From: Sulfurimonas sp. hsl 1-7
Lineage (GTDB): Bacteria; Campylobacterota; Campylobacteria; Campylobacterales; Sulfurimonadaceae
Length of the DNA stretch: 64,000 bases
Reading direction: 5' to 3'
Assembly: GCF_030577135.1 (NCBI RefSeq)
Contig: NZ_JAUIRR010000001.1
Location: 248,001 to 312,000 of the forward strand
Shown: positions 37,789 through 44,602 of the stretch, piece by piece
Position numbering within the stretch: the stretch's first letter is position 1
Layout of the letters: each line of letters opens with the position of its first letter
Notes under the pieces: model-generated
Databases searched by the model: none
What the model was told of the DNA's origin: nothing
The model's input: only the letters and a program-made list of their open reading frames with translations
Position numbers and translations under genes: made by a program

Positions 37789-38803
37789 AGTTGATATCCG
37801 GTAATGGAGTTTTATCAGTCGAAGCTGGTAAAATCGGCATTGTGATATCTGGTTTTCTACCATCTAAAGCTTTTAAGAAAGTTTCAATCTCCTGAACTTG
37901 TTTGTCTGAAAGATCTGCACCTAATTGTACACGTCCCATCTCTTTAATAGCAGCCGGAAGCGTTTTCATCATACCGTTATGGAAGTATGGTCCTGTTTGA
38001 TCAATGTTTCTTAGTGTCGGTACTCTAACCATACCGTTTGCATCACCTTTGAAATCACCTACATCGTTATATTTGTATTTATTTACTACGTTAAATACAT
38101 TAAGCTCACCACCAAGTGCTACACCATTATGACATGTTGTACAACCAACTTGGATAAATGTTTTAAGACCTTGCTGCTCTGCTGCTGTAAGTGCTTTATT
38201 ATCACCGTTTAAGAAGTCATCGTATCTTGATGGAGTTACAAGAGTTCTCTCAAATACTGCAATAGTATCTGCTACTTTTGCTAAAGTGATTTTTACATCG
38301 TTACCGTAGATCTTTTTAAAAGCATCTACGTAAGCAGGCATAGATGATACTACCGCTGCAACATGCTCTTTTGTAGCTGCCATTTCTGGTGCCGCTTGCA
38401 TAGGGCCTTGCGCTTGATCTTCTAAGTGTGGACTTCTTCCGTCCCAGAATTGAATAGAGTTAAAAACAGAGTTATATACTGTCGGTGAGTTTAAGTGGTG
38501 TGGATTTACCGTCCATTTATGACCTATTGCAGCCTCTAAGCCGTCATCACCGCCTTCACTTAAGTTGTGACAAGAGTTACAAGAGATAAAACCGCTTTTA
38601 GAAAGTCTTGGGTCAAAGTAAAGTTTTTTACCAAGTTCAACTTTTGCGTCTGTAATAGGATTCTTTGGATTGTCGATTAGTTTCATTAACTCTTTTTGAG
38701 AGTTTGGGATAGGTTTTAAACCAGCTTCTTCAGCTTGTTTAGCTACGCTACTTGCCATTAAAGAAGTAGTGACAGCGATAGATAACAACATAGTCTTTTT
38801 CAT
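37787..38803 (-). CDS. Di-haem cytochrome c peroxidase
   Basis: About 338 residues from the preferred ATG. Signal peptide MKKTMLLSIAVTTSLMASS, then two haem sites, CNSCH (N-terminal high-potential or peroxidatic domain) and CTTCH. Other family blocks are LGKKLYFDPRLS, GRSPHLEDQAQGP and TLRNIDQTGPYFHNG. It reduces hydrogen peroxide in the periplasm with electrons from small cytochromes. The in-frame TTG 12 bases upstream is rejected: it coincides with the ribosome site GGAG that serves the ATG at 38803. Confidence 0.93.
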   Translation of the reverse strand: MKKTMLLSIAVTTSLMASSVAKQAEEAGLKPIPNSQKELMKLIDNPKNPITDAKVELGKKLYFDPRLSKSGFISCNSCHNLSEGGDDGLEAAIGHKWTVNPHHLNSPTVYNSVFNSIQFWDGRSPHLEDQAQGPMQAAPEMAATKEHVAAVVSSMPAYVDAFKKIYGNDVKITLAKVADTIAVFERTLVTPSRYDDFLNGDNKALTAAEQQGLKTFIQVGCTTCHNGVALGGELNVFNVVNKYKYNDVGDFKGDANGMVRVPTLRNIDQTGPYFHNGMMKTLPAAIKEMGRVQLGADLSDKQVQEIETFLKALDGRKPDITMPILPASTDKTPLPDIN

Positions 38804-42288: not shown

Positions 42289-44220
42289 TTAAATAGTGTC
42301 TAAAATAAGTTGTCCAAGCTTGTTTACATCATCTGTATTGGCAAAACAACTTTTCTCTCCACATACCATAAACCCTTGATCTTCACTTGCTTTTAAAAGT
42401 GTAAAAGGATATTCGATACCTTTTAGTGTAGCGCTATTTTCTTTTAGGTTTGTTAAATTCGATTTAATTACACGATCCCCTTTGATATATCTGAGTGCCT
42501 GTGAAAGCAGGTACGGATAGTAGATCGGGCGTCGTCCAAGATCATAAGAGTTGTATTCCATTGTTTTAAAAGCAAAGTGTGTGTACTTTTCATCTTCTAG
42601 TAACATCCCCAGAGTTAAAAGCACATCTACCATAATGCTTACACTGCTTGTATAAGTGTTGTCGGTTACTTCCGCTTTTGTTTGAAACTCACCTACGCTG
42701 AAGTTCCATAACCCTTTGTCATAGAAGTTTTCTAGTGCTTTATTTGCCATTCTTTGCGCCTGAATGAGATAAAGGTCATCTTGTGTAGCTTTGTAGCCGC
42801 TAAGAAGAGCTTTTGCTAAAAATGCATAGTCCTCTAAAAATGCTTCAACTTTCGGTGTTTTATCTACAAGTGCTGAATGGTAGAGTGTATCGTTAACGTA
42901 CATTTTATTTAAAAGTGCCTCAAGTGCATCTACGGCTTTGCCTAAATATACGTTGTCTATCATCCCCAGTTGAAAAAGGGAATGGATCATCATTGCAGAC
43001 CAAGAAGTTTGCACTTTTCTATCTATAAACGGATATGTTCGTTTTGCACGAAGTCCTTGGAGTAAGATTTTAACATCGCTGAACCAGTCAGGAACTTTTT
43101 CATCAAAACGGATGATGTTTTTCCCCTCAAAGTTTCCATCCGGTGTTACATTCATCTCTTGACACATCTTCCCAATGTTCTCATAAGCGTTTTGTTCTAA
43201 AAGGGCATAAACCTCTTCGTATGTGTATGTAAAGTAAGTTCCCTCTTCACCCTCGCTGTCAGCATCGCTTGCACTATAGAAAAGATTGTCTTCAGACATG
43301 AAGTTAAACCAAAAATCGGCAATCTCTTTTGCAGTTTGTAAGTAGTTTTCATCTTTATAGGCAAGGTATCCATCAAGATAGTTTTCACAAAGCAGGGCGT
43401 TATCGTACAACATCTTTTCAAAGTGGGGCACTAACCATTTCTCATCAACCGAGTAGCGGCAAAATCCGCCGTCAATAAGATCGTACATTCCACCTTTTTT
43501 CATCTGATCGAGCGTATTTGTAAGCATCGCCGTGATTGCTTTGTCGTGATAGAGATTATCGATCACTTGAAGTGTTTTTAGAGTAGAAGCATGGGGAAAC
43601 TTTGGTTTTACAGAGAAACCGCCGTAATTTGGTTGATAATTGCTTTTAGCTTGATTCACAAATGTAAGGTGAAATTCCTCTTTTAAAACAGTTGCTTCTT
43701 TAGGGTGCTCAACATGGTTGATAAACCCCTCGACTTCATCGGCGTTTTTGTAAAGTTGGGGATCATTCTCTTCAACTTTTGTAGCTATAAGAGATGTCAG
43801 TTCTTTAAAACCCATCCCTTCAACACTACCTTCATTAGATTCAGGAGCAATGTAAGTTCCCGCAAAAAACGGTTTGTTTTGCGGTGTACAGAAGATAGAT
43901 GTCGGCCATCCGCCTGCACGACGGTTAAGCAGTTGATACACCTCTTGGTAGTGTTTATCGATGTCGGGACGCTCTTCACGATCTACTTTGATCGCAATAA
44001 AGTTTTTGTTTAAAATCTCTGCACATTCATCATTTTCAAAAACCTGTTCCTCCATCACATGGCACCAATGACATGATGAATAACCGATGCTTATAAAAAT
44101 AGCTTTATTCTCTTTTTCGGCTTTCTCGAATGCTTCATCACACCACGGCCACCAATCAACAGGGTTGTTTTTATGTTGTTGTAGATAAGGTGAATCCTCT
44201 TTTTCTAATCTATTCGCCAT
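42289..44220 (-). CDS. YyaL-type thioredoxin-domain protein (DUF255)
   Basis: About 643 residues from the ATG that begins [16 protein letters not shown]; a start 40 residues upstream is possible but does not match the family and lacks a ribosome site. The N-terminal DUF255 thioredoxin fold has the C-x-x-C pair in [11 protein letters not shown]. The rest is an (alpha/alpha)6-barrel-like domain with [13 protein letters not shown]. The family (human SSP411 relatives) has no firm function; a redox or sugar-related role is discussed. Confidence 0.9.
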
Positions 44221-44314
44221 AAAATCTCTCTTATTATTTTTTCTGTAGGGTATGATAAAGAGGCTAATTTTGTCCTTAAAGAAATAGACTTCTTTCATCA
44301 CTATATAAAGTATG

Positions 44315-44518
44315 AGCAAAAAGCGAAGCAATTTAATCAAGGCAGATGTTCCTAAGCGTAGCTGTAGCTACGGTTAGGGTTATCTAACGCAGAGTAAAGC
44401 AGCTTATCTTTTTGCCCTTTGGGAAGAATAAAAAGAGGCAATCTAGCACAAAAAAATTATTTCACCTTAACTGCGGTTAGGCTGAAAAATTTGTTTTGCA
44501 CTATTTTACCTCTTTTTA
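44315..44518. other. Highly structured non-coding element with nested hairpins
   Basis: A non-coding stretch between divergent genes. The first structure is a hairpin at 44351-44378: CCTAA-G-CGTAGC, loop TGTA, GCTACG-G-TTAGG. It is extended by AGAT/ATCT across a GTT/GTT internal loop (44344-44385) and possibly enclosed by GCAAAAAG/CTTTTTGC. The second is a ~90-base hairpin whose base is the perfect 10-bp stem TAAAAAGAGG (44429-44438) / CCTCTTTTTA (44509-44518) and whose tip is CCT-t-AAC TGCG GTT-AGG. Both tips share a CCTnA...GTTAGG theme. It fits no riboswitch or known small RNA I recognise. A short plus-strand reading frame through it (44419-44631) looks spurious. Confidence 0.6.
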
Positions 44519-44602
44519 TACTTCTCATATCTTTGTATAGTTATGAAAGAAGTCTAATAAATGCTACAATAATAAAAAAAATATTTAAAAATGGGAAATT
44601 TT

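Follow-up and report, generated by a model that had tools for sequence, protein, structure and literature searches.

A TA-flanked MITE with a covarying, strand-polar hairpin core lies between divergent genes of Sulfurimonas and probably exchanges its ends

The window analysed here is a stretch of 64,000 nucleotides from Sulfurimonas sp. hsl 1-7, in which a gene for a nucleoside 2-deoxyribosyltransferase-like protein and a gene for a DUF255/thioredoxin-domain protein diverge from one another, as the original prediction had described. Between these genes, and upstream of both, lies a strongly folded element whose parts are listed in Table 1. No transposase gene is found inside it, and the list of open reading frames contains no long frame confined to its 268 bp. 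The mechanically called frame of the DUF255 gene (42289-44340, minus strand) crosses the left TIR to a TTG within the element, and the true start of this gene is probably an ATG near 44221.

Table 1. Parts of the element and of its insertion site, in positions of the window.
Feature	Position	Strand	Evidence
TA target duplication, left copy	44285..44286	.	empty site in G031
Whole MITE, 268 bp	44287..44554	+ (hairpin 1 first)	copies aligned with flanks, empty site, folding z
Left TIR and closing stem 5' arm (GACTTCTTTCATCACTA...)	44287..44314	+	aligned copies; equal ends on L112 IS
Hairpin 1	44315..44416	+	covariance model R1, 73.9 bits
CAAGGC, conserved internal loop, 5' side	44338..44343	+	
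Hairpin 1, 28-base tip with conserved G.G mismatch	44351..44378	+	
AACGCAG, conserved internal loop, 3' side	44386..44392	+	
Mini-stem CCCTTTGGG between the hairpins	44415..44423	.	
Hairpin 2, related to hairpin 1 with polarity reversed	44421..44526	-	R1 on minus strand, 31.1 bits, E 1e-5
Hairpin 2 tip CCTTAACTGCGGTTAGG	44465..44481	+	
Right TIR and closing stem 3' arm (...TTATGAAAGAAGTC)	44527..44554	+	aligned copies
TA target duplication, right copy	44555..44556	.	empty site in G031

The two hairpins that had been read from the letters are present as described, including the sequence shared by their tips. The 28-base tip of hairpin 1 (CCTAA-G-CGTAGC-TGTA-GCTACG-G-TTAGG) forms 11 of 12 pairs around one G.G mismatch and is extended outward by GTT/GTT and then GAT/ATC, and hairpin 2 stands on a perfect base, ATAAAAAGAGG/CCTCTTTTTAT. 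Folding z-scores for 44300-44530 were -7.4 and -8.6 on the two strands, and those for the whole element were -10.7 as RNA and -10.9 as DNA, with none of 200 shuffles as stable. The interior is a four-way structure in which hairpins 1 and 2, with a CCCnnnGGG mini-stem between them, are enclosed by a stem that the TIRs form. In agreement with the expectation that this was neither a terminator nor a known riboswitch, no terminator-like site was found at the element and no Rfam 15 family matched the window at gathering score; relaxed thresholds returned eukaryotic microRNA and snoRNA models and similar noise, plus a neighbouring tRNA, and nothing relevant.

A BLAST search with the reported interval identified copies in 15 of 60 related genomes; many of these genomes contain more than one, and the insertion sites are unrelated. 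When these copies were aligned with their flanks, the conserved part proved to be bounded on either side by an inverted repeat (TAGACTTCTT(G/T)CA... with its complement), and the flanks outside it were unrelated. The structure described for the interval stands, but its coordinates were too narrow: the true unit, with its TA copies, is 44285-44556. Joining the flanks without the element gave one unbroken block of 799 bases with 88% identity in a related Sulfurimonas genome (G031), where the junction alignment resolved the empty site to within 1-2 bases; less similar continuous blocks were found in three further genomes (G022, G033 and G014). Since the joined flanks match an empty site, the window copy arrived by transposition in the line leading to the window's genome and is not a conserved leader of its neighbours. 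That genome contains a single copy of the element.

A search by TIR pattern only located a candidate helper in another genome of the genus Sulfurimonas. At this locus (L112), a 907-bp IS has the same ends as the MITE and TA on each side, and its two overlapping frames carry HTH_Tnp_4 and DDE_Tnp_4 domains, the transposase being split over two frames. We take this organisation, a frameshifted transposase with a TA duplication, to be that of the IS5 family and presumably of its IS427-like subgroup; the family's DDE domain, the TA duplication and the two overlapping transposase frames are all found in L112. A search for helpers with PF01609, which can miss a split enzyme, gave nothing useful in seven genomes, and in the window's own genome PF01609 found no DDE transposase with the ends of the MITE; it was the TIR pattern that supplied the helper. 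The most likely course is that the transposase of an L112-type IS, supplied in trans, moved the MITE to its site in the window. With TIRs, a TA duplication and a matching empty site, no transposase gene, an IS with equal TIRs and copies that are dispersed and multiple in many relatives though single in its own genome, 44287-44554 is a DDE-type non-autonomous transposon (MITE) inserted at TA, which bears out the MITE-like repeat offered among the original readings.

The recurrence in Sulfurimonas that had been suspected, along with one in Arcobacter, is confirmed for Sulfurimonas, and the element extends to other families of the Campylobacterota. After a search for the loop pattern in 298 Campylobacterota genomes, 397 were screened with R1, a covariance model built on hairpin 1; the hairpin was present in 71, which belong to 24 of the 68 genera and to eight or more families. 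The Sulfurimonas loci that show recurrence were selected by the loop motif, and the copies found by BLAST and by TIR are free of it. A weak third R1 match in the window (38261-38354; 21 bits, E 0.005) has no TIRs, apparently lies in coding sequence and was taken as chance. At least seven TIR groups surround the core, and the ends observed include A (TAGACTTCTTGCA), B (GGGCACCTCTAAAAACC, with many variants), C (ATTACCGCACCGACAAATAAAC), D (TAAGTAATAGGGCATAAATAAC), E (ATACCAATCCCAGCTAAAAGG), H (AAGTACCTAACCATAGTTAATAGCACC), I (TGACCTTACGCA), J (AAGCACCTAGTCAAAAGTAAGACC) and K (TAGAACCTATCTCAAAAATC). The variants AGGGCGACTC and GGGCACATTT, an earlier class F, were counted within B, and the sets used for length and polarity cover six groups. 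A distant relationship between A and B is possible, which leaves some doubt about how many end types are independent.

Length is nearly fixed, almost every copy falling between 266 and 272 bp. The quartiles were 266-269 bp among 54 elements selected between 240 and 300 bp. Of 30 copies found with R1, to whose construction some of them had contributed, 28 measured 267-275 bp; the others measured 278 bp and 246 bp, the latter apparently through an error in calling boundaries. All 44 copies with an assignable context lie between open reading frames (19 divergent, 19 tandem and 6 convergent). Of the 19 tandem cases, a small sample of related copies, 15 have the element antisense to its flanking genes. 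In viral contigs the loop pattern occurred only near chance level, with stem pairing as in random sequence, and distant blastn found no copies in plasmids.

Evidence of a recent end exchange comes from a pair of loci, L067 with A ends and L028 with B ends, whose cores are 95.8% identical over 215 bp and whose ends are unrelated on both sides, with the transition at the equivalent point in the closing stem (CTCAG/CTGAG). A genome that carries B-type elements (G096) also contains a 1252-bp IS (L404) with B-like ends and a 342-residue DUF772/DDE_Tnp_1 transposase, which by BLASTP shares only one stretch of 24 residues with the A-type enzyme. From the L067/L028 pair and the dissimilarity of these enzymes it follows that one core has been combined with the ends of two distinct helpers; it is also combined with end types for which no helper was found. 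A-type TIRs also enclose short unrelated fillers in elements of about 88-153 bp (L114, L115, L116, L120 and L128), several of them REP-like (CCCTTCGACAGGCTCAGGGCGAACGG; CCCGCCTTCGCGGGAATGAC; GTTCAGGATGACGG), and shells and contents therefore combine many-to-many.

A search with the B end only, made in 228 genomes and free of the loop motif, led to 20 fetched TIR pairs, many of them picked for a spacing of about 266 bp and therefore informative about contents rather than frequency: 17 enclosed the full core, two a core without hairpin 1, and one was an empty shell of 48 bp. This shell (L358) and two other B-type TIR pairs (G067:C23:26306-26357 and G070:C122:4157-4211) span 48-55 bp with almost nothing between the repeats, and are possible intermediates of content exchange. 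Taken together, we consider it highly probable, leaving aside any step that involves RNA, that the element is a MITE with exchangeable ends. The core would then be the persistent lineage, switching helper transposases by gaining new ends, which would be swapped en bloc at the closing stem.

The internal loop of hairpin 1 is conserved on both of its sides, with (A)ATCAAGGC facing AACGCAGAG(T), while the stems that flank it differ wholly in sequence between copies and keep their pairing. Among 28 divergent hairpin 1 sequences, compensatory double changes occurred at 27 of 30 pairs. Double-changed cells numbered 272, whereas shuffles gave 86 (0/500), and the covariation score was 0.852, compared with at most 0.26 when partners were slid. 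Because CAAGGC helped to select these 28 hairpins, its invariance among them follows from the selection; in the TIR-only set it was exact in 12 of 17 copies and varied in the remainder. The TIR stem likewise covaries, and covariation in inverted repeats can also come from template-switch correction. With its conserved, covarying four-way fold, the interior does not look like the remnant of an IS. Two other identities were considered for the core. A GCAAGG motif prompted the idea of a self-cleaving ribozyme such as twister-sister, and no Rfam match supports it. An integron attC site has RYYYAAC and GTTRRRY core sites at opposite ends and is used by an integrase; by eye, the CAAGGC end has no AAC core.

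R1 matched the window copy in hairpin 1 on the plus strand and in hairpin 2 on the minus strand (44526-44421), so that hairpin 2 is an other-strand relative of hairpin 1. In 28 non-redundant elements, RNA energies favoured the top strand for hairpin 1 and the bottom strand for hairpin 2 (p 3e-6 and 7e-9, values made too small by kinship among copies). After correction by dinucleotide shuffling, this polarity was seen in 25 of 28 for hairpin 1 and 27 of 28 for hairpin 2, and with DNA parameters it held for each hairpin in 28/28 and in every TIR class. That all the classes agree is difficult to account for in another way, even allowing for kinship. At fixed positions, 52 inner stems, a few of them chance matches, contained 55 G-T against 17 A-C. 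An initial comparison of G.U with A.C over whole hairpins of closely related copies had given little bias, and the strand effect is clear only with diverse elements and with the two hairpins taken separately.

These observations suggest that the hairpins may have a polar single-stranded function, in RNA or ssDNA, with polarity running inward from each end; a single-stranded form is indicated because a cruciform in dsDNA would not be expected to give a strand bias. Each hairpin would work as a folded single strand read inward, most likely in RNA, although this step is less certain. On transcription of either strand, the first hairpin made would have the preferred polarity and, because the element is dyad-symmetric, the same folding would result in either orientation. 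The folded transcript might lower the cost of insertion or bind a host factor at CAAGGC//AACGCAG. We place the chance that the hairpins act as RNA close to even but short of it. The covarying stems and the strand-polar folding are compatible with the structured RNA put forward originally, and would fit ssDNA as well. More tentative, and leaning somewhat towards doubt, is the fullest reading, in which a phylum-wide parasitic DNA lineage of near-fixed length (about 268 bp), with a strand-polar core and exchangeable ends served by several unrelated transposases, would have its core selected as RNA or ssDNA through CAAGGC//AACGCAG.

Two alternatives, which we treat as serious competitors, accept the same MITE and differ in what the core does. 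The hairpins could act as ssDNA in replication or transposition, each end extruding its hairpin during lagging-strand replication or transposition to be recognised by a host factor or transposase, in the way that subterminal hairpins are recognised in IS200/IS605. An inward polarity would let both ends present the same structure, and DNA parameters gave the cleanest polarity of all; still, DDE transposition needs no ssDNA ends, and the presence of the same hairpins within TIRs of different transposases makes transposase-specific recognition unlikely. We regard this alternative as rather unlikely. The core could also be functionless, a diverged inverted duplication whose pairing is kept by quasipalindrome template-switch correction, as the covariation of the TIR stem would allow; stable folds are common to MITEs generally (PMC10969869). 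This explanation, which we judge unlikely, is at odds with the conservation of unpaired loop positions while the stems on both sides change, a pattern also present in copies found without the loop motif, and with the strand polarity and the near-fixed length across families.

Two further alternatives dispute the MITE itself. A structured RNA gene or a regulatory leader of a neighbouring gene, conserved at this place in the window, would account for the strong covarying fold and for an intergenic position upstream of two divergent genes, but the orthologous sites in G031, G022, G033 and G014 lack the element, copies with TIRs are dispersed elsewhere and no Rfam family matches. The empty sites refute a conserved local element, the leader proposed originally is unsupported, since the corresponding locus of G031 lacks the element, and the explanation as a whole is very improbable. 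The two inverted hairpins also resemble a BIME, and Y1 transposases occur in some relatives, so that mobilisation of a REP/BIME pair by a RAYT, a transposase of the Y1 type, was weighed. This we find scarcely credible: the window's genome has no Y1 transposase, 27 Y1 loci elsewhere yielded one clear core match only, itself partial (L146), with other hairpins at several, and the ends are DDE-type TIRs with a TA duplication. Five Y1 loci (L140, L141, L148, L157 and L158) carry repeated TTCCCAnnn-loop-nnnTGGGAA hairpins, a separate REP-like family.

By its defining features the element is a MITE. The usual view of bacterial MITEs is that each is a degenerate insertion sequence dependent on a single parent, whereas in this family a structured core appears to be what persists, lasting longer than any particular helper and taking on new ends. 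Correia-type repeats and ERIC sequences are likewise dispersed, intergenic and palindromic, fold as RNA and are MITE-like. ERIC/RU and Correia-type repeats differ in sequence and size from the Campylobacterota element, and neither an exchange of ends nor a pairing of hairpins with opposite polarity has, to our knowledge, been described in them. The ERIC-like RU (PMC2759123) have the same general likeness. IS-derived MITEs of the IS5 type (PMC10969869) are also short, intergenic and transposase-less, with a TA duplication, TIRs shared with an IS and a stable fold, whereas the present element has an interior that is not IS-derived and is conserved across genera with covarying stems, a near-fixed length and several unrelated TIR sets. 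TIMEs, whose contents are replaceable within one set of ends and among which hybrid elements have been described (PMC4133298), are similarly modular, one kind of end surrounding different cores; however, they belong to another transposase family, have 5-bp duplications and keep their ends while contents change, whereas here one structured core occurs in many kinds of end. REP/BIME repeats associated with RAYT, of which GTAG and CGTC repeats are both listed in Sulfurovum NBC37-1 (PMC3733652), resemble the element in their paired inverted hairpins and conserved unpaired positions, and differ in that it is much longer, has DDE-type ends with a TA duplication and showed no association with RAYT. 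In the open-access literature (subscription journals lay outside the scope) we found no description of the element in Sulfurimonas or Campylobacterota, nor of one structured core within several sets of ends. The recent swap between L067 and L028 makes the mechanism of swapping directly testable, and the polar covarying hairpin, its two-strand loop and the near-fixed length constitute a concrete candidate for function inside a MITE. The element also accounts for many structured intergenic regions in Campylobacterota that are otherwise without annotation.

Variant forms of the core were observed as well. Single CAAGGC//AACGCAG hairpins without TIRs adjoin tRNA genes (L203, L204, L214; L208), apparently at the same place in three Sulfurimonas genomes, and possibly represent a fixed or domesticated copy. 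In other loci (L100, L101:5800-6150, L350-L352 and L356), hairpin 2 contains an additional hairpin-like insert of 24-60 bases, beginning AAGCGAAGCGGTCGGC... or GACCAAAGGAAATGCCC..., which brings these elements above 268 bp.
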